From Owenia fusiformis (Eukaryota > Annelida > Polychaeta > Sabellida > Oweniidae): DNA of 64,000 nucleotides. Under the pieces are notes generated by a model. The model saw nothing but the letters and a program-made list of their open reading frames with translations, had not been told where the DNA came from and searched no databases. Positions 6,401 to 42,100 of the stretch are shown piece by piece. The stretch lies in the NCBI GenBank assembly GCA_903813345.2, contig CAIIXF020000002.1, positions 4,256,001-4,320,000 on the forward strand. The letters are read 5' to 3'. Position 1 is the first letter of the stretch. Each line of letters opens with the position of its first letter. Both the position numbers and the translations under genes were made by a program.

Positions 6401-9400
6401 TAAATTTATCTACCATGGCTTTCTGAAGCCAGTCATTGGTCCAGCCCTCCACCAAGTAGGTGTAATATTTGTGGTATTGAAACACCTCCTGTGCAAACAT
6501 TCTAGTTGCCTCCTTTTCTAAAATTCTTATCATTCTACCTTGCTCTAATTAAGCAAGAGCTGTGTAGTAGACTAATTTGCCTTTTCTGTGTGATAATAAT
6601 AGAACAGCAAAACTTTACTATTTAGAATATTCTAAGGCTATTTCTTATATATTAGTCCATATATATTTACTCCTTTGTGTAGAATTCAATAGCAGAGAAT
6701 TACAGTACCTATAGTGATATTTCTAGTTAGGTTCTTTTGATCTATGTATATGTTGTATATGTATAAATCACTTGATATACGATCATAATATAAATTAAAA
6801 AAAGAAATACTGAATGAATTGAATTAAAATATTAATCAAGTTTTATATCGCTCCTGAATGGCTAATAATGTTCATTGTTATAAATTCTAGGAGCTCACGT
6901 GGGTAAGGAAAATGATGCCAGTTTCTCTGTAGCATGGAATATAGTAGACAACATTTTGGTCGCTTTTTACCAGTATTTTATTTCAGTTCATAAAGCACGA
7001 TTTGATTCCCGAATGCACATTTATGTCTCCTGATATTTTAGCTTTGTAAATATGTTTTTGGGATACTCTGTATGCAACTGGGTATTTCAGCATTCCTGGG
7101 ACACCCTGTAAATATAGTTGGTGTATTTACATTGTTTGGAACCTTGCCTGTGATTTTAGCTTCATAAATATATTTCCGGGACACCCTGTAAATATAGTTG
7201 GTGTATTTACATTGTTGGGAACCTTGCCTGAGATTTAAGCTTTGTAAATATATTTTTGGGACACCCTGTAATTATAGCTGGGTGTTTTTGGATTACTGGG
7301 ACACGCTGTAAATATAGTTGGTGCATTTACATTGTTTGGAACCTTACCTGTGATTTTAGCTTTGTAAATATATTTTTGGGACACCCTGTAAATGTGGCAA
7401 GGTATTTCAACATAACTGGGACACCCTGTAAATATAGTTTGTCTATTTACATTGTTGGGAACCTTACTTGTGATTTTAGCTTTGCAAATATATTTTTGGG
7501 ACACCCTGTAAATGTGGCAAGGTATTTCAACATAACTGGGACACCCTGTAAATATAGTTTGTTTATTTGCATTGTTGGGAACCTTACCTGTAATTTTAGC
7601 TTTGCAAATATATTTTTGGGACACCCTGTAAATGTGGCAAGGTATTTCAACATAACTGGGACACCCTGTAAATATAGTTTGTTTATTTACATTGTTGGGA
7701 ACCTTACCTGTGATTTTAGCTTTGTAAATATATTTTTGAACCAACCTGTAAATGCAGCTGGGTGTTTCTGCATTGCTGGGACACCCTGTAAATATAGTTT
7801 GTGTATTTTCATTTTTGGAAACATTACCTGTGTATGCTCTCGGGAATTTACACTGGACATCTTTCACATATGGCTTTTGAAATTGCAATGCGGAAATTTA
7901 GAACGTTGAATACCCTTAAAACTTAGGAAATGTAGAAAGCAACAGAGATATTGTGGGACACCCTGTAAATGCAGCTTATAGAAAATCAATGTATTATTTT
8001 GCATGGGAATTATTTAAGACTGGTGCTTGTTACATTTGCGCTTGACCTATTCCCCTCATTGAACTGGAAATGGTATCAGTGCTATGAAAATGTCATGTAA
8101 TAAACCTTAAAGGATGCAACCCATATCCAAGGATTTTATGGGGCTTACCTAGTTAAGACATGTGGTAGACCAAATCCCCATTTGTACCATATACAAATTC
8201 AGCGAGTGTTAATGGACTGGACAGGTTCGTCCTTTGAACCAGGCTGGTTGCAGGCAGTTGAGCCTGTCCGGTCCATTATCACCTGGCATGGGCGTAGGGC
8301 TATATTTTGAGTTGGTACGCGTTTTTATCAACTTTAAATGTTGACAATGGTAAACATACAGATACGGTAGGAAGCATAAATAAATTCACAAATAAATTAA
8401 TGCATTTTAACACATTTTTAATTTTTTTTTCAAATTCATTTGGTACGCCTGTGCGTATTTTGCGTAATAGGCGCTACGCCCATGCCTGGTGTGAGTTTTG
8501 AGAAATGTTTCTGAAACGTTCATATGATTAGTCTCAATATAGAACTAGTCAAAATTAATGTAAAAATTATTGGACGAAGAGTTGAAAATCTACTCCTAGA
8601 AATTAACTTTATCATAATGATAGTAAGTACTATACATCAGTATATAAATAAGTTTTACAGAAATCATCTTGTCTTATAGAATGCTATGGATGAGGTGGTT
8701 GCCGCCACTGCGTATCTGGAATTGTTTCTTCGCAAGATCACTGAACCTGCACTCATGCACATATTTCTCAAGTTCATCTGTACTGCCAGTTGCGATGAGA
8801 TCATCATCCTGGAGTCTTTGATAACACGTATTAATAGCAATACTAGGGTACGTATTAATAGCAATACTAGGTACGTATTAAAAGCAATACTAGGTATAAT
8901 TAATAGCAATACAAGGGTACGTATTAATAGCAAAACTAGGTATGTATTAATAGGAATACTAGGTATGTATTAATAGCAAAACTAGGTATGTATTAATAGC
9001 AATAGGTATGTATTAATAGCAATACTAGGTATGTATTAATAGCAATACTAGGTACGTATTAATAGCAATACTAGGTATATATTAATAGCAATACAAGGGT
9101 ATGTAGGATTCGTAGAATATGTAATTAGGATATCTCTAGTTGAGTCAAATCTGAAAGCATTTATCATACAGTAGTTGCAAAACTAGAAAAGATGTAAAAA
9201 CTGGCCTATGTCATGTTTAAAGTTATAAAGTTTGATTCCCTGTGTGCCACATTTTAGAATTCATGACTAAGGTTGAAAACATGATTGATGAATAGAACAA
9301 ATTAAAATCAGCTTAATGTCCTACTGGTTTTTTAACCAAATTCATCGCCACGAGTGAAAAGTGATTGCTTTGGTAGTCAGGCAGTTTTGAGTTTAGAATT

Positions 9401-18400: not shown

Positions 18401-21400
18401 TTCACAATCCAGATATATTGCCTCTGTAATCACCTATCAACAATTGTCCCTCATTGTCTATTGCTACAGCTATTGGTTGGATCCTGGAGATACTTGATAA
18501 ACTTGCCATCTGGTCCTTGGTCCGTACCCTGTGGTTAGAGAAGTCAGTCACAATGATATTGTCTGCTCTATCTGTACATAGACCATAGGGATTCAACTGG
18601 CTTTGCTTGCTACCTTCAGTCCCATACCTATACAGCTCATCACCAACTCTGGTCATACTCACTATACGATATGCTCGAGAATCAGAAAGTGAAAATTCAT
18701 CTTTACTTTTGAATGGCACTCTGGTAGGTTAATTGAAAATCACTGCTTTAGACTCGGTCTGATTTCTGCAATCAACGTGATATACAGCCTTTGTAATTCG
18801 ATCACATATAACAAGTTCCCATCTAGAGTTCAATGCAATATCTTCACATTGTATCAGTGTGGGTAGCTTTAAATCTGTGTGTGTGTACAACATCTGTTGG
18901 TGCCCTTATGGGTCAAGTGGTAGAGCATCGGACTTTGGAGTGGAAGGTCATGGGTTCGATTCCCGCACACTCCCATTCATGTCAGTACTGGCCCTCTCAG
19001 ATTGTTACATAAACACTATTCTGTCATCTAGCACTTCATCTATGTGTAATTGGAATGTTATGTTAGTGTCAAACTCAATGGCTTCATATTTAGACCACTC
19101 CTGTGATTTTGATGTGATATCATCAGCCATGTTAGCTAGCTGTGTATCATGTCCATGTTGTTTCAATGTCCGTAGCTGACTCATTGTGTTCTCAGTGGTG
19201 GCCTTTTGCATTTGTAGATGATCTAAGTGTGATGCTGCTTGTTTGGCATACGTGGCTCTTTTCTGAGCTACAAGGCTGATGTCCTTTGTATATTTATCAC
19301 GGATTGCTTGAATAGCTGTGTTCATATCATTGTTCAGTTCATGTGTCACATCATTCGCTTCTTGCTCCATTTTTTCCTTCTTTGTATGAGTGTTCTGTAT
19401 TGTTTGTACAAAAGTCTGTACACGTTTGTCACCTTTCTTGAGAAGGTCATCGATTAGTTTAACATTGTCCAGTGCAGCTTTATGGATGTCCACACATTCA
19501 TGGCCAGAGTGGTTGGTAACGTAGCATGTAGCACATGCGGTACATTTGTCTACTTTGCAGTATATCTCAAGTGGATTGTTTTTGTGTGTTTCACAGAACA
19601 CTACACGCTGTTTTATAATCTTATATGCACTCTGAGTGTCCTGTATCTTATCGCCAGTCAAGTTCAGCACAGTGTGACCTTTAATGTATCTTTTGTGATG
19701 TCGATCGCAGTCCTCACAAAACTGTTCGTTACACTCTACACATTTTGTATGAGCATCAACATCTTTTTGATCATTCTCTTTACAAACTGTACATTTAGGA
19801 TTATCTCCTAAAATGTCAATAGATTGAAGTAGATCCACTAAGGAACTTGTGGTGAAGTTGACCTTAAACTTTGCCACTCCCCCTTTAGGTATTTGGTGGT
19901 CTTGTCTACACTCTGGGCAGCTTAGACTTTGTTTCCAGCCTTGTTTCTTCTTTTCCAGCTTATCCAGGCACTTGCAACAATATGTGTGCATACATGGTAG
20001 TGCCCTTGGGTCTGTTAGTGTCTCATAACACACCTTACATATTAATGTCTCTTTGACGTGTTCCTCCATTGCAGTTGCCATTTTAATTTCTAAACGTCAC
20101 ATGATGTTTTATACATACTTGAGTTTTTGTCCCGTAACAACATTACTTATTAATAAAAACAATCGTGCTGATATTTCAATAGACTACAACTTCAAGATAT
20201 ATTTTTACAGTGCATTAATTGTTAACTAGTCTAAGAGAACATTTCCAGTTAAGATATATCTTTGGCCTGTCGGGTCATAATATTCTCATAGTCATGCCCT
20301 AGGCAATAATTATGAGAAATCAGGATGTGTACATACATGTATGTCACCAATTCATTACTAAGTGAATTGTATCAAGTGTAGTGCTCTCCCACGTTGAGGT
20401 GCAGCATCTCCATGTACAGCACCTTCATGTACAGCGCCTCCATGTACAGCACCTTCATGTACAGTACCTCCATGTACAGCACCTCCATGTACAGTACCTC
20501 CATGTACAACACCTCCATATACAGTACCTCCATGTACAGCACCTCCATGTACAGCACCTCCATGTACAGCACATCCATGTGCAGCACCTCCATGTACAGC
20601 GCATCCATGTGCAGCACCTCCATGTACAGCACATCCATGTGCAGCACCTCCATGTACAGCGCCTCCATGTACAGCGCCTCCATGTACAGCGCCTCCATGT
20701 ACAGCGCCTCCATGTACAGCGCCTCCATGTACAGCGCCTCCATGTACAGCGCCTTCATGTACAGCGCCTCCATGTACAGCGCCTCCATGTACAGCGCCTC
20801 CATGTACAGCGCCTCCATGCACAGCGCCTCCATGCGCAGCGCCTCCATGTACAGCGCCTCCATGCACAGCGCCTCCATGTACAGCGCCTCCATGTACAGC
20901 TCCTCCATGTACAGCGCCTCCATGTACAGCGCCTCCATGTGCAGCGCCTCCATGTGCAGCGCCTCCATGTACAGCGCCTCCATGTACAGCGCCTCCATGT
21001 ACAGCGCCTCCATGTACAGCACCTCCATGTGCAGCACCTCCATGTACAGCACCTCCATGTACTCGCCTCCATGTGCAGCGCCTCCATGTACAGCGCCTCC
21101 ATGTACAGCGCCTCCATGTACAGCACCTCCATGTACAGCACCTCCCTGTGCAGCACCTCCATGTACAGCACCTCCATGTACAGCACCTCCATATACAGTA
21201 CCTCCATATACAGCACCTCCATGTACAGTGCATCCATGTGCAGCACCTCCATGTACAGCGCATCCATGTGCAGCACCTCCATGTACAGCGCCTCCATGTA
21301 CAGCACCTCCATGTACAGCACCTCCATGTGCAGCACCTCCATGTACAGCACCTCCATGTACAGCGCCTCCATGTACATGTAATTCATGATACCAAAATGC

Positions 21401-23262
21401 TTCTTCATTTAGTAGTTTAGTGATTGTGTCTCTTAAAATGTTACAATAGAATATCAGAAAGTCTTAAAATATTGCACTAAAAATTCTCCACAGAAAATCC
21501 TTGGGATCTGAGCACTGAGATACAATTTCCTATTTGATTATTAGGTCTTATCATATGAAACCTAGATTTGTACATTACTTAGTTCTTGATGTCAATCTTT
21601 GATACAATTGTCAATGAAACATTGAAAAGCAATTCAGTATTTCAGTGTTCGGTATTATTTCTCGATATATTCAATAAATTGTACAAAGCTATGCTTTTTT
21701 CATTGTTCTTTGGGGCCTATTTCTGCATTTTCATTATCCATTCGGGCCTATTCTGTATTTTTCATAATTCTTCAGGCCCATTTCTATGTTTTTCATTGTC
21801 ATTTCAGGCCCATTTCTGACTGTGCTACTGAACAAGCTGGAAGGGATGCAACAGAACACACTCTACGTGAACTTCCTACTGACTGGCCTTTTGACAAGGC
21901 TCTCCTGCTACCCCCAACCATTACTAAGGTCGTTCCTCCTCAATCACAGTCTCGTCTTCCAGCCGACTGTAAAGTCATTATTTCAGGTAATGCCTGATTC
22001 ACATTTGCTCAATCTTCAACACCAGTGCCCGGCTGATGAGTATTTTGTTCAAAACTGAATGCAATTGTGAACAAAATACTCATCAGCTGGGTGACAGTAG
22101 TACTGAATTTTGGACCAAATGCGACTGAGGCTTTGTAACGTGTCTCCATGTTATCCGAGTTACAGAAACTTAGCACTTGTCAAGTAGTTTGACCAGTTTC
22201 TTGTGGTCTTGACCAGCTTACTTTTTTGAACAGCATAAATAGGAAATCAACTGGTCTATAGTTCATTCATGACCAGCATTTCTGAAGTCCATATATTGGG
22301 TTTAGTAAAGCATATAGTTGACTACCTAAAGATGTTATGTTTGCCCTCAGGATAAATCCAGTATTCTGTCCCTCCAAGTAAATAATCATTTTTTCCATAC
22401 GCAGGTGTTGGGTTCAGTGAAACACAAAGTTGACTGCTACTCGTACACAGTTGATAACTTTGACCAGATGCTTCTAAAGGCTTAGATATATTATATTTGC
22501 CCTCAGGATAAATCCAGTATTCTGTCCCTCCAAGTGAATAATCATTTTTATTCCATACGCAGGTGTTGGGTTCAGTGAAACACAAAGTTGACTGTTACTC
22601 GTACACAGTTGATAACTTTGACCAGATGCTCCTTAAGGCCCGAAGATGGTTAGTTTGGCGCGAACAGGCCCATTTACATGGCCTTGAGGCCCCAAAAATG
22701 GTAGACATGGGTCACCAAGGGGGTGCAGAAAAGAATACTAAAGCTCCCCCTGTTGTTGAAGTCAAGAAAGGTAGTATTACCCTGAGAAATATTTTTGCAA
22801 ATTATGTTTTAAATTTCAAATACTTATAATCTGGTGGCCACATTTTAAAAGTTACTACATGTAAAGTATCTCTTTGTATGTCATTATGTTAATACAAAAA
22901 AAAAAGTACTTATACATCAATGAGAATGAACAATTCTGTTTCTAGCCTTAATTCTGTAATTTTGATATAAATACAATAAATTCTTTATCCATAAAAAACT
23001 ATTTTCAGATAAACGAAAGAGTCTTGGCGATTTATTTCGAAGAAGCAATAAAGACATTAAACCTGTTCACCCAGAGACACCTATGTATAAAGATGGCGCT
23101 GGGTATCGTTTCATTAATAAGAAAACCCCCGATGGACCTGAAGCAGCGATCGAGAGCATTCGTACGAAGAATGTTGTTTACTGTACGCTAGTTTTGGAGG
23201 AATTTCTGAAGGAACTAGCAGCAGTTGCATTAGAACATTCAGTTTTACATTTGGAAGAATAA
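3426..23262 (+). CDS. FHIP1: FHIP1-like FTS and Hook-interacting protein (FAM160A family), 11 coding exons
   Basis: Coding exons by splice consensus: 3426-4196, 5670-5828, 6369-6455, 8680-8847, 9547-9626, 10075-10233, 14746-15667, 16004-16166, 21808-21986, 22563-22770 and 23009-23262. All phases join and give 1049 aa, within the family's usual size. Family signatures are DPETCLEVFKSHW, FVHREGTVGQSARDALLL, GLSALYSSLP, SLEFCNAVVQ, RDVDLYG-like KDVDLYGKAADKLLSL, WSAPYDGE, YVNFLLTGL, PQPLLRSFLLN and VVYC...EFLKELAAVA near the stop. Known family role: FHIP1 proteins join FTS and Hook proteins (the FHF complex) and link endosomal cargo to dynein-dynactin. The start ATG (MSWLKKSK) is preceded by an acceptor at 3417, implying an untranslated 5' exon. 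Exon 7 is long and low-complexity, the variable middle of the family. Introns carry many repeats; the donor of exon 4 and the acceptor of exon 10 are tandemly duplicated. Confidence 0.93.
4830..4935. repeat. Dispersed repeat, CACCCACCTGAAAAT family
   Basis: Contains CACCCACCTGAAAAT, CACCCACTTGAAAATGAG and a GACCAAATTTGGTCTGAATT core. The reverse complement of the same ordered motifs is at about 43310-43475 in the MTMR2 gene, so this is an interspersed element found in two introns of the window. Confidence 0.6.
6152..6272. repeat. Palindromic MITE with TAYAGGGTGTC ends
   Basis: TATAGGGTGTCAAATAAGTC at the left is matched by GACTTATTTGACACCCTGTA at the right, with C- and G-runs completing the stem and a loop of about 60 bp. 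It belongs to a loose superfamily in this window with TACAGGGTG ends and a flanking TA. Other members are at 9433-9508, 11421-11843, 23490-23660, 26894-26967 and 48711-48787. It lies in FHIP1 intron 2. Confidence 0.8.
7035..7990. repeat. 120-bp minisatellite built on GGGACACCCTGTAAAT
   Basis: A unit of about 120 bp, with two GGGACACCCTGTAAAT motifs per full unit, repeats about six times and decays at both ends. The CACCCTGTA motif matches the terminus of the TACAGGGTG MITE family, so the array probably grew from a MITE end. ORFs of 217 aa on both strands are by-products of the period being a multiple of three. It lies in FHIP1 intron 3. Confidence 0.85.
8189..8490. repeat. Two adjacent foldback elements
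   Basis: The first is a stem of AATGGACTGGACAGG with CCTGTCCGGTCCATT (about 8210-8281). The second has arms GGCATGGGCGTAG and CTACGCCCATGCC (about 8285-8487) around an AT-rich centre. Both lie in FHIP1 intron 3, about 200 bp before exon 4. Confidence 0.55.
8828..9108 (+). repeat. 23-bp array duplicating the exon 4 splice donor of FHIP1
   Basis: The last 20 or so bases of exon 4 plus the donor (TTAATAGCAATACTAGG then GTACGT) repeat about 12 times into the intron with small changes. Most units keep a GTACG or GTATG donor-like start after AGG or AG. The exon's reading frame stays open to about 8973. Confidence 0.85.
9433..9508. repeat. Short MITE, GGTGACCAAAA ends
   Basis: CAAGGTGACCAAAAGATA...TTTTTTGGTCACCCTGTA is a short inverted repeat of the TACAGGGTG superfamily. 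It sits about 40 bp before the acceptor of FHIP1 exon 5. Confidence 0.6.
9861..10054 (+). repeat. 190-bp GGCACCGAAAC element abutting a 3' splice site (copy 1)
   Basis: Runs from TACACAGCCAATATAATT to GCATTTTGGGGGTGTA, with the short terminal repeat TACAC/GTGTA and internal runs of GGCACCGAAAC and GGCGCTGT. It is far more GC-rich than its surroundings. A second copy is at 30333-30514 on the other strand. Both are sense-oriented relative to their host genes; this one ends 20-22 bp before the AG of FHIP1 exon 6. Confidence 0.85.
11421..11843. repeat. MITE nested within a MITE
   Basis: The outer pair TAGGGTGTACCGAAAAAATG / CATTTTTTGGTACACCCTGTA encloses an inner pair TACAGGGTGTCCAGAAAGT / CTTTTTTCTGGTCACCCTGTA at about 11545-11802. 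The outer left arm contains about 40 bp (ATGCCACTGGCGATTTGGTC) that reappears inverted at about 31135-31170, next to the LINE fragment. It lies in FHIP1 intron 6. Confidence 0.75.
12955..14346. repeat. Composite tandem element with GCACTTTGAAAAAGTGC end
   Basis: Two copies of a unit of about 571 bp contain TCATCAAAATTCCAGGAAAA, TTGAAATTTTTACAGATGCA and GGTGGCCATTTTGAATTTTT blocks plus AGGTCA-rich segments. It is bounded by GCACTTTGAAAAAGTGCTAT on the left and CAAAGTGCGATATTTATCAC on the right. A short deleted relative lies at about 15700-15815, just after FHIP1 exon 7. Non-coding and intronic. Confidence 0.75.
16561..18303. repeat. G-run-rich degenerate repeat block, GGCCCGTA family
   Basis: The phrase GATGCTATTTGGTGCTTTCTGGGCAC and its variants recur about every 120-300 bp, alternating with long G-runs and CCCCCAGAAA motifs. 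The block starts AGGCCCGTAAG and ends GACGGCCCTGTTAA. Related sequence with GGCCCGTAGCCAGG-like ends is at 24262-24470, 28885-29075, 42100-42270, 42425-42520 and 61570-61745. Non-coding; FHIP1 intron 8. Confidence 0.65.
18402..18900 (-). pseudogene. Decayed NHL-repeat tail of the TRIM gene
   Basis: On the minus strand, coding-like sequence continues past the RBCC stop. One piece reads LPTLIQCEDIALNSRWELVI, then CDRITKAVYHVDCRNQTESK, an in-frame TAA near 18733, and then a second piece including LNPYGLCTDRADNIIVTDFS, NHRV and PIAVAIDNEGQLLIGDYRG. The GLCTD..DNIIVTDFSNHRV and VAIDNEGQLLIGD patterns resemble NHL beta-propeller blades of TRIM2/3/56-type proteins. The in-frame stop, the tRNA-like insertion between this part and the RBCC part, and the short propeller argue for a pseudogenised C-terminus. 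A divergent intron structure is the alternative. Confidence 0.6.
18901..18978 (+). repeat. tRNA-like sequence (tRNA pseudogene or SINE head)
   Basis: An A-box-like GGTCAAGTGGTAGAGC and a perfect B box GGTTCGATTCC are spaced as in a tRNA. The acceptor ends (TGCCCTT and ACTCCCA) pair poorly and the anticodon arm is irregular, so this is probably a tRNA-derived SINE or dead tRNA. It sits exactly between the intact RBCC part and the NHL remnant of the antisense TRIM gene. Confidence 0.6.
19005..20081 (-). CDS. TRIM-family RING, B-box, coiled-coil protein, intronic and antisense
   Basis: A single-exon ORF of 358 aa. RING finger at about residues 15-59 (CKVCYETLTDPRALPCMHTY then CCKC and CPEC, C3HC4 pattern). 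B-box 1 at about 97-140 (CTVC...CVEC...CEDC...H). B-box 2 at about 163-196 (CETH...C...C..C...H..H). A coiled-coil region rich in K/E/Q runs from about 205 to 330. Known for the family: RBCC proteins are usually ubiquitin E3 ligases, and those with NHL repeats include TRIM2/3/56/71. Here the ORF stops after DDRIVFM and the NHL-like sequence further on is broken, so the expressed product may be a propeller-less RBCC protein. It lies wholly inside FHIP1 intron 8 on the opposite strand; the intronless form suggests retrocopy or lineage expansion. Confidence 0.85.
   Translation of the reverse strand: MATAMEEHVKETLICKVCYETLTDPRALPCMHTYCCKCLDKLEKKKQGWKQSLSCPECRQDHQIPKGGVAKFKVNFTTSSLVDLLQSIDILGDNPKCTVCKENDQKDVDAHTKCVECNEQFCEDCDRHHKRYIKGHTVLNLTGDKIQDTQSAYKIIKQRVVFCETHKNNPLEIYCKVDKCTACATCYVTNHSGHECVDIHKAALDNVKLIDDLLKKGDKRVQTFVQTIQNTHTKKEKMEQEANDVTHELNNDMNTAIQAIRDKYTKDISLVAQKRATYAKQAASHLDHLQMQKATTENTMSQLRTLKQHGHDTQLANMADDITSKSQEWSKYEAIEFDTNITFQLHIDEVLDDRIVFM
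20395..21382. repeat. 15-bp minisatellite, about 65 copies
   Basis: Unit CATGTACAGCGCCTC, with variants AGCACC, GTGCAG and ATATACAG, repeated almost without length change. Because 15 is a multiple of three and the unit lacks stops in most frames, ORFs of 217-333 aa appear in several frames on both strands; none looks like a gene. It lies in FHIP1 intron 8, about 310 bp upstream of the TRIM start codon. Confidence 0.95.
22032..22087. other. Perfect 20-bp stem hairpin in FHIP1 intron 9
   Basis: GCTGATGAGTATTTTGTTCA is followed after 16 nt by its exact reverse complement. It starts 45 bp after the donor of FHIP1 exon 9. The arms are perfect and match no repeat family seen elsewhere in the window. 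Confidence 0.85.
22322..22562 (+). repeat. Partial tandem duplicate of FHIP1 exon 10 acceptor and exon start
   Basis: A 158-bp unit holding about 80 bp of intron end (from GCCCTCAGGATAAATCCAG) and the first 78 or so coding bases of exon 10 occurs twice in tandem. The upstream copy (acceptor at 22403-22404) runs into a TAG after encoding DQMLLKA and has no nearby donor. The authentic exon is therefore the downstream one at 22563. Confidence 0.9.
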
Positions 23263-24920: not shown

Positions 24921-26569
24921 TTAATTGCTAGCAGTAAATACTCTGAATTGTATTGAATATGTGACATTATAGGAGTTCAAGAAATATCCAAAATTGAATT
25001 TTAAAAAATCTCTAATCATTGTTGTTCACCAACACTTTACTTATTGAAAGAATTAGCATGGAAAAAGCATGACCAATGGGACAATATTATCATAGGTTTT
25101 AAGTGCTCCTAGTGCTGTGTAGAGGGTTCATCTGGTGTTTTCTTATCTTTGAAATATGTACTCATTTTTCATGCACTCATTTTAGTGCACTCACTTTGTT
25201 TGCACTCACTGTATACACATTACTTGATATATGCATTAGGGTTCTTGTGATAAATCTATTCTCAACCCTTCAGTTTACCAGTAAAACCTGTATTTAAAGG
25301 TGCTACAAATAGTGCAGGGGGGGCCATTCAACGATCATCGACAAGTGTCAAAATATATTTAGGTTTGGATATTTCATCAAGACTAACATATATTTTCATT
25401 ATCAACAAAGAAACCCTCTGGATGAACATTATTTCAGCTGATATTCCTCTTGAAACATGGTGGATCTTAAAAATCTATAAGTGGGACTCCCTTTATAGAA
25501 GCTTTGAATTGAATTTACACTTCTTAATGCTGAAATTGATAGTTTATACATACATTTTATGAAAATAGGTATGTCAAAGAAGGTATTAAGCCAAATATTG
25601 ACCTGATAGCTCAGAAAAAATAAAAAATTTCGAATTTTCTCTCTACAGTCCTTATTGCCTCTTTAAGTACAACACCTTTGGTACCTAAAAATAGTGTTAC
25701 ACATTGGGTTCACTTTATATTAATTTAAGGGTATAAGGACATGGTTCTTAGAGAGGTGTTCCACTTAACACTTAGAGAGTTGTTCCACTTTGAAAAGTGT
25801 TCCACCTAGAGAGGTGTTCCACTTTGAAAAGTGTTCCACCTAGAGAGGTGTTCCACTTTGAAATGTGTTCCACCTAGAGAGGTGTTCCACTTTACTGTGC
25901 TCATTTTGGTCTTTCCCTGGTGTCTATGAGACTGATAAGAATCATAAGTATATTCATATAGTTGAAAAAAATCAGATTACAACTCCAAATGAAGTGAAAT
26001 TGTCCAAATTGCTAAAAGAGAAATTGATAACAGTAAAATTTCACCGCACCACTCTGGAACCATTTGTTGGATAAGCCTGAGTTCAAGGTTTCTTAATGTG
26101 AGTCAATGGGATATAACAAAATTGGGATCGAGAAAAGGTGTTTGTATCATTATTCAGATAAACAGGTTTTACTGTATCATTCTCAGGGGTCCGTTTTTGG
26201 AACTGTCTTTACTTACGATTTGGTCGCAAGTCATTGTTTGTCAGAAAATAGACAATGGTTTTCTCGGAATCGTAAGTTAGGACCGTACTAAAATTGAACC
26301 CCTGTATATTATAATACAAAACCAAAGGAAATGGAAAAGTTAAAAGTGAGAATGCTTCACAGGACCCCAAATGTATGTATCATAACTTGCAATATAGGTA
26401 TATCTTGATATGTTGTATTTTATTTATGACTCACTTTGTGTGTTTTATGGAGAACTTGCGGAGTGGAGTGGATTTGAAATAGGTGAAGATGTCCCATGTT
26501 TTAGTAGTTCATGTTATTTAATATACTAATATTACTATTGAAGATGTATATCTGAAATGAATAAATATG

Positions 26570-26800: not shown

Positions 26801-26893
26801 ACACTTCATATCTTGTTATAGTCTGAATGACATAATTTTAACAATTCATTTGCATTATATGTTGTACAAGAACACAATATTTGTATAAAAAAA

Positions 26894-26967: not shown

Positions 26968-27370
26968 GACTATTTTAGTAGGACAGATGGGATATTTATT
27001 ATATGATGCCAAATGACTGAAGGTCTGTGTATATATATTTTCAGACTATATATGTGTTCAAAAGGGATATACAATGTTTTAATAGCTTTATAATATATAG
27101 GCATATGGTCTACTTAAACTACTTTTGAAATGCAGTAAAACTTGTCTATAGTGAACAATGGCTCTATCTTTAAAATAAAAACTTTCTGTGTATGTATTGT
27201 ACTTTTCTTGAATTAAATATATTTTTTGATTAGCACATGTTGAACTAACCCATCTATACTGAACACTTAATTACAAAAAACATATGTTCTTCACCTTGGA
27301 GGTGTTCACTGTAAACAGGTTGCACTGTTTTATTGTTCAATCATTTGGGGGTATAATAGCCCATTAGATC

Positions 27371-27577
27371 TTGAGGGACCTGTATCTCTGCCAGAATATT
27401 TGTTCCCAATCAATGGAATCCACAACAGGCCTCCTAGACCTCATAGTTGCTGACCTCGATCCTTCTACCCGAACAACGTTCTCGTTCATGAATATCAGTT
27501 CTTTAGTCGCAAAACACCAGTTCCTCTATGGTTCGGGTGAATGGAACAAAGGCAGCAACATCACCACTGGCAACCGC
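27371..27577 (+). other. Possible orphan coding exon
   Basis: A stretch that is more GC-rich than its flanks is open for 69 codons and stops precisely at a consensus donor (CGC then GTGAGT at 27578). The peptide includes DLYLCQNICSQSMESTTGLL and FLYGSGEWNKGSNITTGNR, which looks like real protein rather than repeat. I do not recognise the family, and no joined exons were found nearby. Confidence 0.3.
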
Positions 27578-29754: not shown

Positions 29755-29856
29755 AAAGCTAAGTTCACACCAATGGCGCTTTAATGGCGTGTGAAGTGGC
29801 TTTGCATGTCGCATTAAAGCGCCATCAAAGCGCCATTGGTGTGAACTTAGCTTAAA
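29755..29856. repeat. Foldback MITE, TAAGCTAAGTTCACACC ends
   Basis: AGCTAAGTTCACACCAATGG then CGCTTT pairs with AAAGCG and CCATTGGTGTGAACTTAGCT across about 40 bp. This near-perfect stem is one of the youngest-looking foldbacks in the window. Confidence 0.8.
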
Positions 29857-30164
29857 CATCTAGTTCAACTTCCTCATCGAATCAGAAGATAAAGGTCCCA
29901 AGTATCATTAAAAACAGACGAGACAATTGCTCCTTTTTCTGCCAAGTGCTACAGTTGTGGCCATTCTAATAATTTATGATATGAAGTACAGTAAAACCTG
30001 TGAAATCTGAACATTTCTTGGGCCAGGTGTTCACATTTCAAGGTTACTTAATATATGATTTAATGGGAGCTAAAAAACTGGGACCAAGAAAAGGTATTCA
30101 CATTACGAGATATTGAGATTAAAGAGATGTTCAGATATAGGTTTTGCTCCACATTTGTATTGTT

Positions 30165-33100
30165 TCAACCATTCACTGGGGAGCTAAGTCTTGGTGCATG
30201 TTCGGAGCCTCTTAGATTTTTAGCATCCAGTTCTCGCTGTAGCTCATCAACACGTCTCTGAAGTTGTTCCTTAAGCATTGTTAGTTCTCTGTTACGTAAT
30301 TGCACTGGTTCCTGGAGAAAAAACAAATTGGTATTTACACCCCCAAAATGCAATATGATTTTCGACGCCGTTTCGGTGCCAAATTTTGGTGCCGTTTCGA
30401 CACCAAATGGACTGACTAGTCTGGTGGCAAATTTTGGTGTTGAAAGGTTTTGGTGCCGGAACAGTGCCGAATTTTTTCGATGCGGAAACGGCGCAAAATT
30501 ATATTGGCTGTGTATATATCTCATCAATTAATTCTGGAACTATGCTGATCTTGATTTATAAGAAATTCAATTTAAATTTATTTTTCATGAGTAATTCCTA
30601 CATGCATTTAATACATGGCTTAATAAAAAATAAATTTAATTTATCAAAAATTTAATAAAAAATCATACCTGTGGTTTCATTCTAGGGTTCCACCTCAGAT
30701 AGTATCCAGTCCATAGTTCTATCCTCCTAAGACTCGCAACAGGGTATAGCACGTGGTGATGTATGTAGTCCGCATATAGGGGATTCTTGAACTCATCCAG
30801 CTGGTTGTTAACATAGGACCATAAAGACACTGTCTTATGTTTTATATCCTATAGAAAAAAATATTAACTATACTTAAAGGGGTAAAAACAAAATGCAATT
30901 ATCAGTAACATTATTTCAAGTGAACTTTTAACATCGAGAAAGTCAGCCAATAAGTTCAATCAAACATGAATTACCAAATATTAACGAATTCTGGTAATAA
31001 TATAATAGTTTATAAGGCCTACCAATATATGAACAATGGTCTACAACATGTTCAATGAGACAACTCATTCCAAAAACTTTTTTTTTTCATCAAGAGATTT
31101 TATTGCCATTAATCATTATAAGTACATATCATACATGAGGGACCCAATCGCCAGTGGCATTATAGGTGTCCCTCATTGTAGTAATTAATTACAATTTGTA
31201 AACATGGTTTATACACAATTATATATTATAAGAAGAATAAAAAAGAAAGCATCTGCATTTTAAAATTGGAGTGTGGGGGGCTGCTGCCTCTGCCTATAGG
31301 GTCCTGTGGTCTAAATCCTGGAAGTTAGATTTCAAACCTGAAAAAAGTAAAGAAGTCATTTTTTCTAAGAAAAACACCCATAATTATGAAGTCTTTTTGA
31401 ATAATCAGCCAATAACTAGGCATAATCAGCATAAACATCTAGGCTTCTATTTTGACAGTAAACTCAGCGGCTCTGAACATATAAACTATCTTGTTGACAA
31501 AATTCAAAAAGCTTTAAATCCAATGAAACCACTCAAAAGCAAACTTAAATCTAAACAGCTCAACATTATGTACAATTCTTATATCCAATCACTTTTCGAT
31601 TACTGTGACATACTCTATCACTGTGCAACACAGGCCAATCTAAAGAGACTGGACAAGCTCCAATACCAAGCTTCATTGATTGTCTCTGGTTGCTTACCAG
31701 GATCTAATGCAAAGAAAGTCCTTGATTTGCTAAACTGGTCAAGTCTAAATGAAAGAAGAATTTTTCATTTCAAAAAGCAAATGTATAATATATTTAATCA
31801 AAATACTCCATCATACATTAGCGACATATTTCATCCTTTTAAAAAGACAAACATTAGAATGTTGCGAGATTCATTGGACTATAGTATACCAATCACAATG
31901 CCAAGGAAATCACCTGTTTATAATATGATGAATATTTGGAATAAAATTCCAAGAGAGCTAAAATCATTACCAAGTATAGCATCATTCAAGTACAACTTGA
32001 AAAAATTACTCTTCCAAGGTACAATCTCAACAATGACCTTAAAACTCTCAAGGAAACAAGAAATTATTCTAAATCGTGCCAGATCAGATCTTATTCTCAA
32101 ATCACAACTTAAGGCCCACAACTGGACAACTGTTGACTCTCCAAACTGCGAATGCGGAGCCCCTGAGACTTTCCGCTATTTGTTTTTTAAATGCCCATTG
32201 AAAACCGAACAAATTCTTAAATTTAATAGAGATATTGAACTAATCACTGGAAACCAATCTCAGTTCAGGACCCAGATGGACAAAATAAACCTTTACTTAT
32301 TTGCTCACCCTTCACTTACTCAGGAACAAATTGACAATCTTTTATCAGTGGTGAGCCTTATTCTTATTGAGCACGCATAGATACATGTATTTGGAAGCTC
32401 GTGTACTTTTGTTTTCAGCCCTACCACTCCTTATCTCTACTGCTTTTCTCCCCTTGTTTCATTCTCTTACATTATACTGTAGTACCATGAAGTCTTCTTT
32501 GTGCCTCATAGAAGGTACAGACCAGTCACATGCTTTAGTCATGGGAGACTATGGCGCGAACCTCTTTTCCCTACTCATACTACTATATCTTTGTTTCCAA
32601 AAACATCTAAATTATCTTTTACAATTTATTCAATTACTTTGTGAAAACCTTTCACCAGGCAAATCCCCTCCCGATAATATTCTTGATAATAGGCCACGGA
32701 GCTTTATTATCAGAAATATCATAAGAAATGTTAAACAGGGCCTTTTTCTGTGCACTCAGTATGAAATTGTACCTCTTTGAACTCTATGTTGGGATTTCCA
32801 TTGAAATTATTCTGTATCGCAGAGGAAAGTCCCAAAAAGGCAGCTGTAAGGATGGTCCGATATGGTGATAACATAAAAAATGAAAAATGCATTCATATTT
32901 CATACCTCTTTAACTCTCTGTTGCTCTGTATTGCAGAGGAAAGTCCCAAAGAGGCAGCTGTACAAATGGTCCAATATGGTGATCAGGAGTTGTTCGTTGA
33001 ATTCAAAGGCAGTCGGAAACTGAAAAATAAAGTATCAAAATATGTCCACCTCATTTCTTGCCCTAAAATAAATAACAATCTAATGGGTTAGAATGTGTTG

Positions 33101-36100
33101 ATTACAGTGAAGCACAGTATTACTATGAAATCACATCAGCAGTATACAAGTTACCTTTAACTACAGGTCATGTAATGTTAATATTTTCGAGACACTCTGA
33201 ACTTGGTTCATTTCTCCTGTACTTTACATTTGAAAACCTGTCCATTATTCCATTTTTCTTACCTGTTTGGTCATCTGCCACACACAGTCTATAAACTGTA
33301 GGAATACAGGAGATCTGTCTGCGTCTGAATGTTTGTCTTCTCCATGGCCTATCCTCTATAATATACCAATATAATATATATATTTACATAAGTTTCTGAA
33401 ATATATCAACATATAATAGTCTATAAACTGTAGGAATACTGGGGATCTGTCTGCGTCTGAATGTTTGTCTTCTCCATGGCCTATCCTCTATAATATACCA
33501 ATATAATATATATATTTACATAAGTTTCTGAAATATATCAACATATTACAGTCTATAAACTGTAGGAATACAGGGGATCTGTCTGCGTCTGAATGTTTGT
33601 CTTCTCCATGGCCTATCCTCTATAATATACCAATATAATATATATATTTACATAATTCTCTGAAATATATCAACATATTACAGTCTATAAACTGTAGGAA
33701 TACGGGGGATCTGTCAGCGTCTGAATGTTTGTCTTCTCCATGGCCTATCCTCTATAATATACCAATATAATATATATATTTACATAAGTCTCTGAAATAT
33801 ATCAACATATAACAGTCTATAAACTGTAGGAATACTGGGGATCTGTCTGCGTCTGAATGTTTGTCTTCTCCATGGCCTATCCTCTATAATATACCAATAT
33901 AATATATATATTTACATAAGTCTCTGAAATATATCAACATATAACAGTCTATAAACTGTAGGAATACTGGGGATCTGTCTGCGTCTGAATGTTTGTCTTC
34001 TCCATGGCCTATCCTCTATAATATACCAATATAATATATATATTTACATAATTCTCTGAAATATATCAACATATTACAGTCTATAAACTGTAGGAATACG
34101 GGGGATCTGTCAGCGTCTGAATGTTTGTCTTCTCCATGGCCTATCCTCTATAATATACCAATATAATATATATATTTCCATAAGTCTCTGAAATATATCA
34201 ACATATAACAGTCTATAAACTGTAGGAATACGGGGGATCTGTCAGCGTCTGAATGTTTGTCTTCTCCATGGCCTATCCTCTATAATATACCAATATAATA
34301 TATATATTTCCATAAGTCTCTGAAATATATCAACATATAACAGTCTATAAACTGTAGGAATACTGGGAATCTGTCTGCGTCTGAATGTTTGTCTTCTCCA
34401 TGGCCTATCCTCTATAATATACCAATATAATATATATATTTACATAATTCTCTGAAATATATCAACATATTACAGTCTATAAACTGTAGGAATACAGGAG
34501 ATCTGTCTGCGTCTGAATGTTTGTCTTCTCCATGGCCTATCCTCTATAATATACCAATATAATATATATATTAACATATGTCTCTGAAATATATCAACAT
34601 ATAACAGTCTATAAACTGTAGGAATACGGGAGATCTGTCTGCGTCTGAATGTTTGTCTTCTCCATGGCCTATCCTCTATAATAAACTAATATAATATATA
34701 TATTTACATACGTCTCTGAAATATATCAACATATTACAGTCTATGAACTGTAGGAATACAGGAGATCTGTCTGCATCTGAATGTTTGTCTTCTCCATGGC
34801 CTATCCTCTATAATATACCAATATAATATATATATTTACATAAGTTTCTGAAATATATCAACATATTACAGTCTATAAACTGTAGGCATACAGGGGATCT
34901 GTCTGCATCTGAATGTTTGTCTTCTCCATGGCCTATCCTCTATAATATACCAATATAATATATATATTTACATAAGTTTCTGAAATATATCAACATATTA
35001 CAGTCTATAAACTGTAGGAATACAGGGGATCTGTCTGCATCTGAATGTTTGTCTTCTCCATGCCCTATCCTCTATAATATACCAATATAATATATATATT
35101 TACATAAGTTTCTGAAATATATCAACATATTACAGTCTATAAACTGTAGGAATACAGGAGATCTGTCTGCATCTGAATGTTTGTCTTCTCCATGGCCTAT
35201 CCTCTATAATATACCAATATAATATATATATTTACATAAGTTTCTGAAATATATCAACATATTACAGTCTATAAACTGTAGGAATAAAGGGGATCTGTCT
35301 GCATCTGAATGTTTGTCTTCTCCATGCCCTATCCTCTATAATATACCAATATAATATATATATTTACATAAGTTTCTGAAATATATCAACATATTACAGT
35401 CTATAAACTGTAGGAATACGAGAGATCTGTCTGCGTCTGAATGTTTGTCTTCTCCATGGCCTATCCTCTATAATAAACCAAAAAAATAATATTTTTTCAT
35501 TATCCTCTAAAAAATAGCAGCATTTCAGGCTTCCAGAGAATTTTACATGCAACCCAATACATGTTTTAACTTACAAAGATGCATGCAGTTGATCTAAAGT
35601 GGAATAATCAGATTGGACTTTATCCAGCCGTACCAAAATGCAATTATATCTGGCAACTTGTATCATTATTAATTTAAATAAATAAATGGTTCTGTTGCTA
35701 TAGTAATGACAAGGACTATCAACTGTTGCTATATATGGACTATCAAAACTGCTGCAATTCGCTGAACTCTATTTATTAAATGTTTATATTGAATAAAAAT
35801 TTGCTATAAAACCTACCTGAGCAAACTTGTGGCCATAACTGGTCCATTCCTTTTCTATGAGCACCTCAAGACCTTCAATGGTTCTGTAATAAGGATCTAA
35901 CATCAACATGGCAAGACCTGTCAGCTGAAATATTAAGAATATAATTATTAATAGCTGGTCCATTCCTTCTCTATAAGGACCCCCAGACCTTCAATGGTTC
36001 TGTAATAAAAGTCTAACATCAACATGGCAAGACCTGTCAGCTGAAATATTAAGAATATAATTATTAATAGCTGGTCCATTCCTTCTCTATAAGGACCCCC

Positions 36101-39100
36101 AGACCTTCAATGGTTCTGTAATAAGGGTCTAACATCAACATGGCAAGACCCGTCAGCTGAAATATTAAGAATTCTCAACTAAATTACCCAGAAATTGAAT
36201 TATGAAGAGAAAATGTAATATTTAATTAAACCACATGTATATGCCCCATGGCGTCTGTGTGAGATAATTGTAACTCAAATGAAATGAAATATGATTGATG
36301 AATCCTAGCTCCCATTGGGTATGTCATTTTCAATTAACAGAGGAGAGAGTGAAAATGGATGCTTTACAAATGCAATAAAAATTTTCAAATAGTCAACTGC
36401 TGACAGTCTCTGGTTGTTTCAATTCTAGGAAGATTTGTTTGAATAATCTTCAAAGGCGTAAAGAATTTTCCCAACCCTCCCATATCCAAATGTTGGGATA
36501 TTACTCAATCCCAATTTTGTTATTATCACCTATAGGCTCAAATGTTAATAAAAACCTAGAAATGCAAAGACCTACTAATCTGAATATGTTTGACTTGTCC
36601 CAGTTGCATTTTAATTAGACAGCTTTTATTGTAATAATTTAGTCCAATTTTTAAATCTGTCAATTAGACAGCTTTTATTGTAATAATTAAGACTAATTTT
36701 TAAATCTGCTAATTAGACAGCTTTTATTGTAATTCAATTTAGTCTAATTTTTAATAAATCTGTTAATTAGACAGCTTTTATTGTAATAATTTAGTCTAAT
36801 TTTTAAATCTGCTAATTAGACAGCTTTTATTGTAATTCAATTTAGTCTAATTTTTAATAAATCTGTTAATTAGACAGCTTTTATTGTAATAATTAAGACT
36901 AATTTTTAAATCTGCTAATTAGACAGCTTTTATTGTAATTCAATTTAGTCTAATTTTTAATAAATCTGTTAATTAGACAACTTTAATTGTAATAATTTAG
37001 TCTAATTTCTAAATCTGTCATAATATCCAAGGATTATACCTGTGCAGTTCTGTCCCATCCATCACTACAATGAACAAGTACAGATGTCTTATTGCTCTCC
37101 ACTTTATCTGCGATCTTCACAGCCCCAGCAAGAATTTGCTGTAAGAGATAAGATATTATTTAGGTATAGTGCCAATTGTGGAAACATTTTAGGGTATTTG
37201 GTTACGAAAGTGTTATAGCCTATTACAGGGTGGGCAAAAATCATTATTTGGTCCATCCAGTATATCTAATACCCTTTATAAAGGTATTCTTTAGGTATAG
37301 TGCCAATGAAAAAACATCCAGTAAATACTTCAAGCAAGCAGGAAACATTTTAGGGTCATTGGTTGACCATATAACCTATATACAGGGTGAGGAAATAAAA
37401 ACATTATTTTGGCACATCCAGTATATCTAATACCTTTAACAAAAGTATATGGCATGAGGTTGTTCCAATTAATACTATCAATTATTCTAAATGCACATGT
37501 AACCCCTTGTACCCTTACACTCCTTATATCCTTATACCCTACCTTATACCCCTTACCTTTATGTGCTCCAGCCAATGTGTAGATTCAATATGTGACAACC
37601 AATGAGTGTCATCAATGGTTGGGAAGCAGATTTCCTTCAGCTTACGTAAACTGGGGATAAACATAATAAAACATAATGAGTTGATTCAATATGTGACAAC
37701 CAATGAGTGTCATCGATGGTCGGGAAGCAGATTTCCTTCAGATTACGTAAACTGGGGATAAATATAATAAAACATAATGAGTTGATTCAATATGTGACAA
37801 CCAATGAGTGTCATCGATGGTCGGGAAGCAGATTTCCTTCAGCTTACATAAACTGGGGATAAATATAATAAAACATAATGAGTTGATTCAATATGTGACA
37901 ACCAATGAGTGTCATCAATGGTCGGGAAGCAGATTTCCTTGAGCTTACGTAAACTGCAGATAAACATAATAAAACATAATGAGTTGATTCAATATGTGAC
38001 AGCAAATGAGTGTCATCAATGGTTGGGAAGCAGATTTCCTTGAGCTTACGTAAACTGCAGATAAACATAATAAAACATAATGAGTTGATTCAATATGTGA
38101 CAGCCAATGAGTTTCATCGATGGTCGGGAAGCAGATTTCCTTGAGCTTACGTAAACTGCAGATAAACATAATTACATAATAAATAAAAAACATGATAACA
38201 TACTCCCCCCTTGGGTGGGCCCAGAAAATGTTTTGGGTGAAAGGCCTCAATTATTGAATTGAATTGAATAAAAATGTTTCCTGAACGGAATGGTGGAGGC
38301 AGAAGGGGGGGGGGGTGTTCAAAAATGTTTCTCTGGACATCATCGTCATCAATTGGGATACTAGAGATTTCTTTCCCTATAAACAGTTTTACTCTTAAAT
38401 GGTCCTTTTTCTAACTGTATTTTTGAATACTATTTTTTCTTTTTGTTTACATCTAAAATGTTATAAAATAACTCTTAATACCTCTCTCTCATGACGTGGA
38501 TATTGTGTATATCTAAGAAGACTAGCTCCATGTTCTGGTATTGACTATCCTCATAGCCTCCTCCTTTGGCCTGTAATGTAAAACATGTGAGCTAAAAACA
38601 TGGTCAATAAGCACATTTATTTCCACAGATTTCTTTTATTTTCAACGTTGCACCTAAACAATCTATAACAATCCAATGCAATGCGTTAATGGGCTATAAT
38701 GCACTATAGGAGTTACAGAGTCAATGTTCATACATCTCTGTGATTGATGGTAAATGCATTTGATGAAGTGAGTCAATGTTCATACATCTCTGTGATTGAT
38801 GGTAAATGCATTTGATGAATCAATGTTCATACATCTCTGTGATTGATGGTAAATGCATTTGATGAATCAATGTTCATACATCTCTGTGATTGATGGTAAA
38901 TGCATTTGATGAATCAATGTTCATACATCTCTGTGATTGATGGTAAATGCATTTGATGAAGTGAGTCAATGTTCATACATCTCTGTGATTGATGGTAAAT
39001 GCATTTGATGAAGTGAGTCAATGTTCATACATCTCTGTGATTGATGGTAAATGCATTTGATGAAGTGAGTCAATGTTCATACATCTCTGTGATTGATGGT

Positions 39101-42100
39101 AAATGCATTTGATGAAGTGAGTCAATGTTCATACATCTCTGTGATTGATGGTAAATGCATTTGATGAAGTGAGTCAATGTTCATACATCTCTGTGATTGA
39201 TGGTAAATGCATTTGATGAATCAATGTTCATACATCTCTGTGATTGATGGTAAATGCATTTGATGAAGTGAGTCAATGTTCATACATCTCTGTGATTGAT
39301 GGTAAATGCATTTGATGAAGTGAGTCAATGTTCATACATCTCTGTGATTGATGGTAAATGCATTTGATGAAGTGAGTCAATGTTCATACATCTCTGTGAT
39401 TGATGGTAAATGCATTTGATGAAGTGAGTCAATGTTCATACATCTCTGTGATTGATGGTAAATGCATTTGATGAATCAATGTTCATACATCTCTGTGATT
39501 GATGGTAAATGCATTTGATGAAGAATCCAGGGGTTTCACTAGAATTTCTCAAAACAGGCTAAATATATGAAAACAGGCAAAATTAATGAAAATCAAACTT
39601 AACATGAAAAAGTTGAAAAATCCCTAAAAAGAACAGGCGATTCTGTCAAAACAACCAGTGAAAATCGCCTGTTGCTAATGAAACCCTTGAATTCAAATGT
39701 GACTGCTTTCACAGTCCTCATATGTGCAATAAATACTGTAAAACCTAAAGGCATTTGACATGGGGCATGTTTAATTCCATTCAAAGCCCCTCTCTCCAAG
39801 GTTACAATTTGTATCAGAATAAATTTAATATCAATATTTAAAAAAAGTATTATATTTTTCACAAATTACCATGTTTGCCACAGCATTGACATTAGGCCTA
39901 GCATCCATGATGTAGAGTTTATGCGACTGAGCATTGGCGTCCATAATGTATTGAATGTACTTTTCATCCTCGGAACATGTCTTACGTGTGATTCCGACCA
40001 ATGGCTGACTAGATCTGGTTATTGAGGCCTGGCTCTCTGGATGAATCCACGATAATATCTGAAAATTTTACAAGTAATGTAATCGTCAAAAAGAGTTCAT
40101 TGAATTAACACATTAAATTGTCCTCTCAGAAATTCTCAAGTAAGTTGCGAGATGACTTTCTAATATTTTAATTTAGAAGTTTTTCAATATGTGTACCTAA
40201 AATGGGTCAAGGTAAATATAATGTTTTCCACCCATAAACAGGCTTCATTATAATTGTTTTATTGATCTTTGGAGGAAGCCACTTATGTTTTGTGTAACAC
40301 CAAAATAGTGATGGGATCATGTTTAAATCTTGGCATCAAAACAGTCCCTGAAATGTTCAAAAAGACTAGCCTTCAAATACTTACTGGAATTCTAGCCCTG
40401 CTTCTGAAGGCACCTACTCTCTTTAGGTCATCATCTGACATTGCAGAGGGAACAGCAAACTGAAAATCAAGCAAGTACATGAGGTCATCATCTGACATTG
40501 CAGAGGGAACAGCAAACTGAAAATCAAGCAAGTACATTAGGCCATCATCTGACATTGCAGAGGGAACAGCAAAATGAAAATCAAGCAAGTACATTAGGTC
40601 ATCATCTGACATTGCAGAGGGAACAGCAAAATGAAAATCAAGCAAGTACATTAGGTCATCATCTGACATTGCAGAGGGAACAGCAAACTGAAAATCAAGC
40701 AAGTACATGAGGTCATCATCTGACATTGCAGAGGGAACAGCAAACTGAAAATCAAGCAAGTACATTAGGCCATCATCTGACATTGCAGAGGGAACAGCAA
40801 AATGAAAATCAAGCAAGTACATTAGGTCATCATCAGACATTGCAGAGGGAACAGCAAAATGAAAATCAAGCAAGTACATTAGGTCATCATCTGACATTGC
40901 AGAGGGAACAGCAAACTGAAATCAAGCAAGTACATTAGGTCATCATCTGACATTGCAGAGGTAACAGCAAACTGAAAATCAAGCAAGTACATTAGGTCAT
41001 CATCTGACATTGCAGAGGGAACAGCAAACTGAAAATCAAGCAAGTACATTAGGCCAACATCTGACATTGCAGAGGTAACAGCAAACTGAAAATCAAGCAA
41101 GTACATTAGGTCATCATCTGACATTGCAGAGGTAACAGCAAACTGAAAATCAAGCAAGTACATTAGGCCAACCTCTGACATTGCAGAGGTAACAGCAAAC
41201 TGAAAATCAAGCAAGTACATTAGGTCATCATCTGACATTGCAGAGGTAACAGCAAACTGAAAATCAAGCAAATACATTATGCAACATTCAAAGGTTTGAA
41301 TGAGGCCCCTCCCGATGCAATGAGATGCGAATTAATATTTTGATCTAAGAAAACTCAATCTCCAGCAAACATATTATTCTAATTTTATCTACTTTGAGTA
41401 TCATATAGTATATATTAATTGTCTTGATTGCAAAATCTTCTTACCTGTTTAGGGTATGAATCACAAAACTCATAATTCTCGTTTATATCAGTTATTCTCC
41501 AGCTCTCGTTTGGCATATTTTTTACCCCCTAAAAATAGAATGTAAAGTGTATATACAATGTACAAATATAACAGCTATTATTGCCTGTTTCACTGTACCA
41601 ACCACAATCTTTGATGATAAAGAAAGTTCATTACTAATTCTCATTGCTGGAACATGCTAAAGATGACCACAAATTTGAAAAAATGTGCATCAACAGCAGT
41701 ATATAGCACACATTAAATTGCAATCAAGCCATGGTGGGTTTTGTATAATTTTTGCTGCACAATTCAACAAATATAAAAAGGTTACTTTTTTCTTGCGAAA
41801 GTTTACTTCATTGATTTACTTATTAATCAAGGAATATGATATGTCCATTGTAAAATGTGTCAGAGCTTTTTTTGCATTGCTTCATTTTAACTTTTCACTC
41901 TAAATCAAGCAATTTTTAAATCATTAACTATGTTTTTATATTGCCCCTTGTGTTTCTAATGAATGAGTTTCTTTGTTATGTACCTGTCTGCTGAGTTCCT
42001 TTATGGGGTCATATACCTGCCAGCCATTATTGTCAAATGACTCTTTGTACTCAAATGCAAATAGACGCTGAAAGAATACAATTTCACAATTTGTTAGAAA

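Follow-up and report, generated by a model that had tools for sequence, protein, structure and literature searches.

Why do tandem repeats in two neighbouring genes of the annelid Owenia fusiformis include the borders between exons and introns, and does this happen more often than random placement would give? The question is raised by a stretch of 64,000 nucleotides (contig CAIIXF020000002.1, positions 4,256,001 to 4,320,000; hereafter the window, in whose numbering its positions are given), which holds the genes MTMR2 and FHIP1. An earlier note on this DNA had reported tandem duplications at splice junctions of seven exons in the two genes. We find that such junction arrays are commoner than random placement gives, both in the window and at exons of other genes. 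The note had known of no established name for the pattern; in amphioxus these repeats are called mirages. Features of this kind have been described before; new are the place, the scale, and the evidence bearing on the relation between the copies and the working exon.

Duplicated splice junctions in MTMR2 and FHIP1

All seven duplications are present, as found with Tandem Repeats Finder (TRF) and in the sequence itself, except that the copy at MTMR2 exon 15 is degenerate and was recognized by eye only (Table 1). As the note had stated, they are of two types. Five are acceptor arrays, in which the acceptor is duplicated together with the exon start (MTMR2 exons 8, 11, 13, and 14 and FHIP1 exon 10), while two are donor arrays, in which the exon end is duplicated together with the donor (FHIP1 exon 4 and MTMR2 exon 15). 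The arrays do not, however, begin at the junction, as had been claimed, but span it: the splice site lies inside each unit of the window arrays, with exon and intron sequence both present. By our division of the units, in 15 of the 16 acceptor arrays so divided each unit holds 22-81 nt of intron sequence and 35-127 nt of exon sequence. MTMR2 exons 8, 11, 13, and 14 each start in the last unit of an array carrying the intron end, the acceptor, and the exon start, and the exon 13 segment shows as three PF06602 rows. Two other arrays in MTMR2 introns lie away from any junction, again as the note had said.

The exons of MTMR2 were placed using Pfam PF06602 matches, reading of the frames, and the AG and GT sites flanking exon peptides; such sites are visible beside the peptides of all 17 coding exons. 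When exons 8-15 were joined via the last copy of each array, the product aligned to the PDB structure of MTMR2 (1zsq) over 284/285 residues (E 1.6e-152). Because the joined exons match this structure, the last copy of each array is the plausible working copy; the predicted protein is intact. FHIP1 was named from a PF10257 match, and its exon numbers, like the total of 28 exons, are those of the earlier note. Exon 4 (8680-8847, +) matches PF10257, and exon 10 gives a weak DUF5917 match under the cut-off.

We considered whether the arrays could be artefacts of assembly. There is a precedent in the lancelet draft, where one amphioxus mirage was aberrantly assembled, according to a passage of the globin paper (PMC3087553). 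In O. fusiformis, however, the copies bear their own variants, and unrelated loci each use local sequence. Furthermore, two units searched against the genome, with very common words skipped, matched nothing elsewhere: the 132-bp unit of MTMR2 exon 14 gave 17 matches and the 101-bp unit of exon 11 gave 6 at E 0.001, all within their own arrays. An assembly artefact is thus very improbable.

Excess of arrays at splice junctions in other genes

Because the window had been chosen after the fact, we sampled exons of other genes, comprising 279 exon matches in 147 stretches (labelled L with a number) of 291 kb in all. Among the 69 TRF arrays in this sample, 23 straddle a listed junction, 4 straddle acceptors of unlisted exons (L004, L065, L054, and L125), and 42 are non-spanning. 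Random relocation gave an expectation of only 6.97 for the arrays at listed junctions (P 2.1e-8). The excess persisted without the loci L038, L049, and L079 (20/66 versus 6.43 expected, P 6e-7), and also when the expectations were multiplied by 1.3 for missed exons and two unlisted-exon cases were added (25 versus 9.06, P 1e-7). Units of at least 40 bp spanned junctions in 19/38 cases versus 5.84 expected and shorter units in 4/31 versus 1.13 (P 0.025), while the kinesin and USP/MTMR/FHIP loci together gave 17/40 versus 4.42. In the window, 4 of the 6 large arrays of MTMR2 span a junction versus 1.39 expected (P 0.025), in a rough test that collapsed the gene length to one unit per array. The note's impression that the frequency was too high for random placement is therefore borne out. 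The comparison that it had proposed, TRF arrays against splice sites with random relocation, was run here on the 291-kb sample rather than the whole genome.

The same figures bear on a simpler explanation, by which duplications inside exons are purged, those across junctions survive like intronic ones, and the window is a lucky draw. It can appeal to MTMR2, which alone reaches only the P value given above, and to the TBC (3/14, P 0.1) and myosin (3/15, P 0.14) loci, each of which is non-significant. Yet plain tolerance is the very null that we used, in which placements wholly within an exon were excluded, and it is rejected by the whole sample even with the raised expectations. We consider it improbable.

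The 23 arrays sit at 22 of the 279 exons (7.9%), since one exon in L063 has two. Exons with a junction array number 8/94 in kinesins, 8/62 in USP/MTMR/FHIP genes, 3/49 in TBC genes, and 3/74 in myosins. With 17 acceptor and 6 donor arrays at the listed exons of the sample, both boundaries are thus duplicated. The USP exon with two arrays (L063:1-1232; G000:C4:3647217-3648448) is flanked by a donor array of 54 bp x10.8 and an acceptor array of 81 bp x7.4.

The non-spanning arrays are not clustered near exons (mean rank 0.491, calculated for 30 of the 42, those not cut by a locus end). Since they lie at random relative to exons, a diffuse hot spot around exons was rejected. Among arrays with units of at least 40 bp, those with at least three copies span junctions in 13/21 cases versus 2.84 expected, and those with fewer than three copies in 6/17 versus 3.00. 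The earlier note had also proposed a process by which repeats would start preferentially at the edges of exons; this is possible but finds no support in the random placement of the non-spanning arrays or in an excess that is stronger at three or more copies. A more specific form of the idea is that tandem duplications form preferentially across splice junctions, above all acceptors, for instance through staggered-break repair or through replication slippage at the step from the AT-rich intron end to the exon. The lean of the low-copy arrays to junctions, which rises to 9/17 with unlisted exons, would agree with such a bias in birth, as would the predominance of acceptors over donors (22:8 for listed exons and window together, P 0.016) and the unit ends of L040, which share at least 11 nt as seen in the sequence. 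On the other side stand the non-spanning arrays, which are not near exons, and the low-copy excess, which taken alone has P 0.053. A bias in birth is therefore doubtful, although it deserves a place among the explanations.

Sampling and scoring of exons and arrays

Exon places came from Pfam family row lists over the whole genome (498 Mb, 525 contigs). The rows used were 94/148 for kinesin, 40/92 for USP, 16/27 for MTMR paralogues, 6/13 for the FHIP family, 49/49 for TBC, and 74/92 for myosin. Eight of the 27 MTMR rows lie in the window, as do five of the 13 FHIP rows, and two further FHIP rows are extra copies of one exon. The dropped USP rows were mostly those with several internal stops (matches running over introns), and the dropped myosin rows include a cluster on contig C9. 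Eighteen kinesin rows come from the copies of a single array, as do 11 USP rows from another, and each set was counted as one exon. The AMP-binding family was left out, as its 14 scored matches each span nearly the whole domain. Rows were picked without regard to arrays, except for L038, L049, and L079, whose arrays had been seen in the row lists beforehand and whose stretches were cut wide; the row lists alone had revealed three further cases, with 3 rows for an FHIP paralogue, 18 for a kinesin, and 11 for a USP. TBC and myosin were added as a check when the first two batches had already been examined.

In myosin, 12 matches to one myosin-head segment (profile ~27-81) lie outside the window at G000:C9:37986009-37994334 (-), with starts ~300-1950 bp apart. 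Their arrangement suggests clustered alternative exons of a muscle myosin gene.

TRF was run on the loci with a score of at least 100 and a period of at least 15, keeping one row per array. Arrays near exons were classified by eye from the sequence, and 12 others were re-read. In the null model, one unit per array was relocated randomly within its locus, with at least 5 bp on each side of the junction; exon limits were those of the Pfam matches, and one unlisted exon was added in each of L004 and L065. The arrays scored as non-spanning include L106, whose unit has acceptor-like sequence with no exon assigned, and L029 and L113, which begin at a donor with almost no exon.

Exon variants in the spare copies

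To follow the fate of the copies, we scored in frame the differences that the exon portions of the spare copies show from the working exon. This covered 15/26 acceptor arrays, 5 from the window and 10 sampled; donor arrays stood outside the test, and L004 (its 42-bp array), L017, L040, L045, L046, L057, L065, L104, L125, L139, and L144 were left out because their exon parts were short, their units irregular, or their ends cut off. We counted 82 distinct exon changes, comprising 51 synonymous, 31 replacement, and 0 stop changes, versus a neutral expectation of 22.3, 57.4, and 2.3 (P 4e-11). In arrays of at least three copies, changes found in all spare copies were synonymous versus non-synonymous at 14:1, and in two-copy arrays the ratio was 5:1. 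In arrays of at least four copies, changes common to several spare copies stood at 22:9 and those confined to one copy at 9:17. The one-copy changes were compatible with neutrality (P 0.38) and differed from the shared ones (Fisher P 0.008).

Since fresh, one-copy changes are neutral-like while spread ones are mostly synonymous, it appears that the spreading variants passed through the selected exon and the fresh ones did not. Spare copies seem, from these variants, to exchange sequence with the selected exon, in either direction, by gene conversion or unequal exchange, as the note's mention of gene conversion had anticipated. The copies do not look to be under selection today; rather, the variants spread in the array would bear selection's mark.

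If the copies were functional, serving as alternative splice sites or as translated repeats under selection, this could account for the overall richness in synonymous changes and for two arrays that are open over long stretches. It sits poorly, however, with the neutral-like one-copy variants and with the loss of AG in 4/15 copies at MTMR2 exon 8, where 11/15 keep it; AG is present in 17/17 copies at exon 14. Nor are unit lengths biased to multiples of 3, which were found in 14/33 arrays (P 0.18), namely 12/26 acceptor (P 0.12) and 2/7 donor arrays; MTMR2 exon 15, with no regular unit, stood outside this test. As the units show no clear preference for frame, there is no sign in their lengths of the copies being translated. 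We regard functional copies as highly unlikely.

The 150-bp acceptor array at L049:1682-3360 (G000:C9:8171950-8173628) falls within an open frame of 666 codons and is a candidate for repeats that are translated.

Divergence within the arrays

Exon and intron divergence was measured by gapped alignment, with the outermost copy treated apart. The outermost copy was reached in 12 arrays; outside this count are L049 and L105, in which the script took 9 of ~11 and 2/5 copies, L063, which runs past the locus, and L144. In 9/12 arrays, the intron part of the outermost copy is 16-38% diverged from the rest, while its exon part is 1-6% diverged; in the remaining three, the outermost intron part is 5-8% diverged. 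Interior intron parts differ by <10% in 7/9 of the arrays with a diverged outermost copy, which fits an exclusion of array edges from homogenization. Among the interiors and the working copy, exon divergence is higher in 8/12 arrays and intron divergence in 4/12, so that neither part is consistently better kept. The earlier note had held that the exon sequence of the units is well kept; once the outermost copy is set aside, this does not hold. Recent expansion, which it had inferred, can apply to the array interiors at most and does not suit the diverged outermost intron parts. Taken with the results above, its interpretation as a whole is partly supported. The alignments suggest old founders with continuing turnover, although replaced or rearranged flanks could mimic age.

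One earlier approach was discarded. Ungapped end-matching for microhomology was misled by indels in the AT-rich intron parts, and the exon/intron contrast that it gave vanished in gapped alignment with the outermost copy treated apart; no conclusion was drawn from it.

Features of the window

The window has a GC content of ~35%. Its gene model and arrays are collected in Table 1.

Table 1. The MTMR2 gene and the tandem arrays of MTMR2 and FHIP1 in the window
Feature	Strand	Position	Unit and copies	Content	Basis
MTMR2 gene	-	30168-45987		17 coding exons; first 45802-45987, last 30168-30299	
MTMR2 exon 8 (40385-40459) array	-	40423-41279	57 bp x15.1	acceptor + first 35-37 nt of exon	TRF + sequence
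MTMR2 exon 11 (37557-37650) array	-	37574-38172	101 bp x5.9	acceptor + ~77 nt of exon	TRF + sequence
MTMR2 exon 13 (35817-35924) array	-	35835-36172	116 bp x2.9	acceptor + ~90 nt of exon	TRF + sequence
MTMR2 exon 14 (33263-33355) array	-	33284-35500	132 bp x16.8	acceptor + ~70 nt of exon	TRF + sequence
MTMR2 exon 15 (32906-33019) copy	-	~32767-32869	one diverged extra copy	exon 3' half + donor	by eye; missed by TRF
FHIP1 exon 4 array	+	8828-9105	23 bp x12.1	last ~20 nt of exon + donor	TRF + sequence
FHIP1 exon 10 (real exon start 22563) array	+	22335-22639	158 bp x1.9	intron end with acceptor (~81 nt) + exon start (~77 nt)	TRF + sequence
Array in MTMR2 intron (counter-example)	-	36611-37018	49/103 bp	outside exons	TRF
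Array in MTMR2 intron (counter-example)	-	38718-39523	52 bp x16	outside exons	TRF

Within the span of FHIP1 lies a TRIM-like uninterrupted frame of 363 aa with RING and B-box domains (19005-20096, -). It is adjoined by an array of a 15-bp unit x65 (20408-21377), several frames of which, on both strands, stay open for >330 codons. Outside MTMR2 and FHIP1, a 45-bp unit x58.6 with 97% matches occupies 49342-51970. Degenerate minisatellites of ~16-34 bp with a GGTGTTC or GTGTTT core occur outside exons at 25769-25893 and 43072-43117, and in the sample at L021:421-525 and L077:804-1238.

Discussion

We lean towards the reading, somewhat on the side of probable when taken as a whole, that these are mirage-type minisatellites, that is, tolerated junction duplications kept alive by exchange with the working exon. 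A short local tandem duplication that takes in a splice site with the adjoining exon and intron would found the array. It would be tolerated because the splice site beside the exon body still makes a normal exon, while the spare copies turn into intron. Purifying selection would hold the exon part of the working copy, and between this part and the neutral copies sequence would keep passing through conversion or unequal exchange. This exchange may in turn keep the array competent for recombination, so that it is homogenized and grows, while wholly intronic duplications would erode, and arrays with an exon edge inside them would come to be overrepresented. From the data above we infer which splice site is used in the RNA, the process of exchange, and a longer life, as opposed to preferential birth, as the cause of the excess. 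The random placement of the non-spanning arrays and the stronger excess at three or more copies fit a longer life of anchored arrays better than a diffuse hot spot.

Several observations weigh against persistence through exchange. Those last two observations would also be compatible with a process of birth directed at the junction as such, and the surplus of acceptors over donors is not predicted by persistence. The excess is also uneven: in the TBC and myosin check it has the same direction but is weaker (6/29 versus 2.55 expected, P 0.03; 4/13 versus 1.98 for units of at least 40 bp). Along the array, the copies showed no increase in exon difference from the working copy (9 arrays, P 0.20). 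The intron parts inside the L120 array have diverged as far as its outer copy, and L054, with two copies, has no interior. Long open frames run through the arrays of L049 (150 bp) and MTMR2 exon 8 (57 bp), so that some of their copies might be translated. Last, the classification was made by eye, and L057 was scored as spanning with only ~4 nt of exon.

The amphioxus mirages are the closest known system. According to the passages of two papers on which we draw, the name covers repeats in the globins BflGb6 and BflGb9, with Adh3 cited (PMC3087553), and a mirage in PGBD5, with Adh and troponin C cited (PMC3902484). Their splicing is seemingly undisturbed (PMC3087553, PMC3902484), with Adh3 data and globin reverse transcription PCR suggesting that it is normal (PMC3087553). 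In these passages the mirages resemble our arrays as minisatellite-like tandem duplications across the intron-exon boundary, at either boundary, with units of 10 to ~160 bp and splice signals kept in many copies. Homogenized interiors with distinct outer copies, as in BflGb6 (PMC3087553), may also characterize part of our arrays. The globin paper describes the generating mechanism as unclear (PMC3087553). The lancelet cases are described there gene by gene, whereas we counted arrays at 279 exon matches of an annelid genome, and the random-placement control and the synonymous/non-synonymous test used here do not appear in those passages. We found no genome-wide count of mirages and no report from an annelid in full-text searches of a partial collection of the literature.

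Two further reported systems share parts of the pattern. In the RdRp gene of potato, a duplicated segment crosses the intron-exon boundary and the spare exon piece becomes intronic (PMC4974935). A new intron was demonstrated there, while our arrays lie at existing junctions. In the polyubiquitin gene UBC, with its dual-specific splice sites, each tandem copy likewise carries splice signals (PMC10809524). The UBC copies, however, are coding and spliced in variable number, whereas the units here have no frame preference, and only some of them, by eye and with no background count, begin the exon with GT.

More tentatively, and short of what we would call probable, splice junctions may be a standing substrate for tandem arrays in this annelid lineage, at ~8% of the sampled exons of conserved genes, with the arrays swapping sequence with the working exon. 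If so, a reserve of neighbouring copies free of selection would, through conversion, take part in shaping exon edges, and in a phylum distant from the lancelets introns would steadily gain length, and new intron positions, from the arrays. Repeat masking and gene prediction may also be prone to cut off exon edges in this genome, as the arrays suggest. At such a frequency in an annelid, mirages would represent a wider mode of intron and exon-edge evolution than a lancelet oddity, and would offer a countable system for two questions: the lengthening or origin of introns through tandem duplication, and the extent to which coding exons are reshaped by gene conversion from unselected copies.

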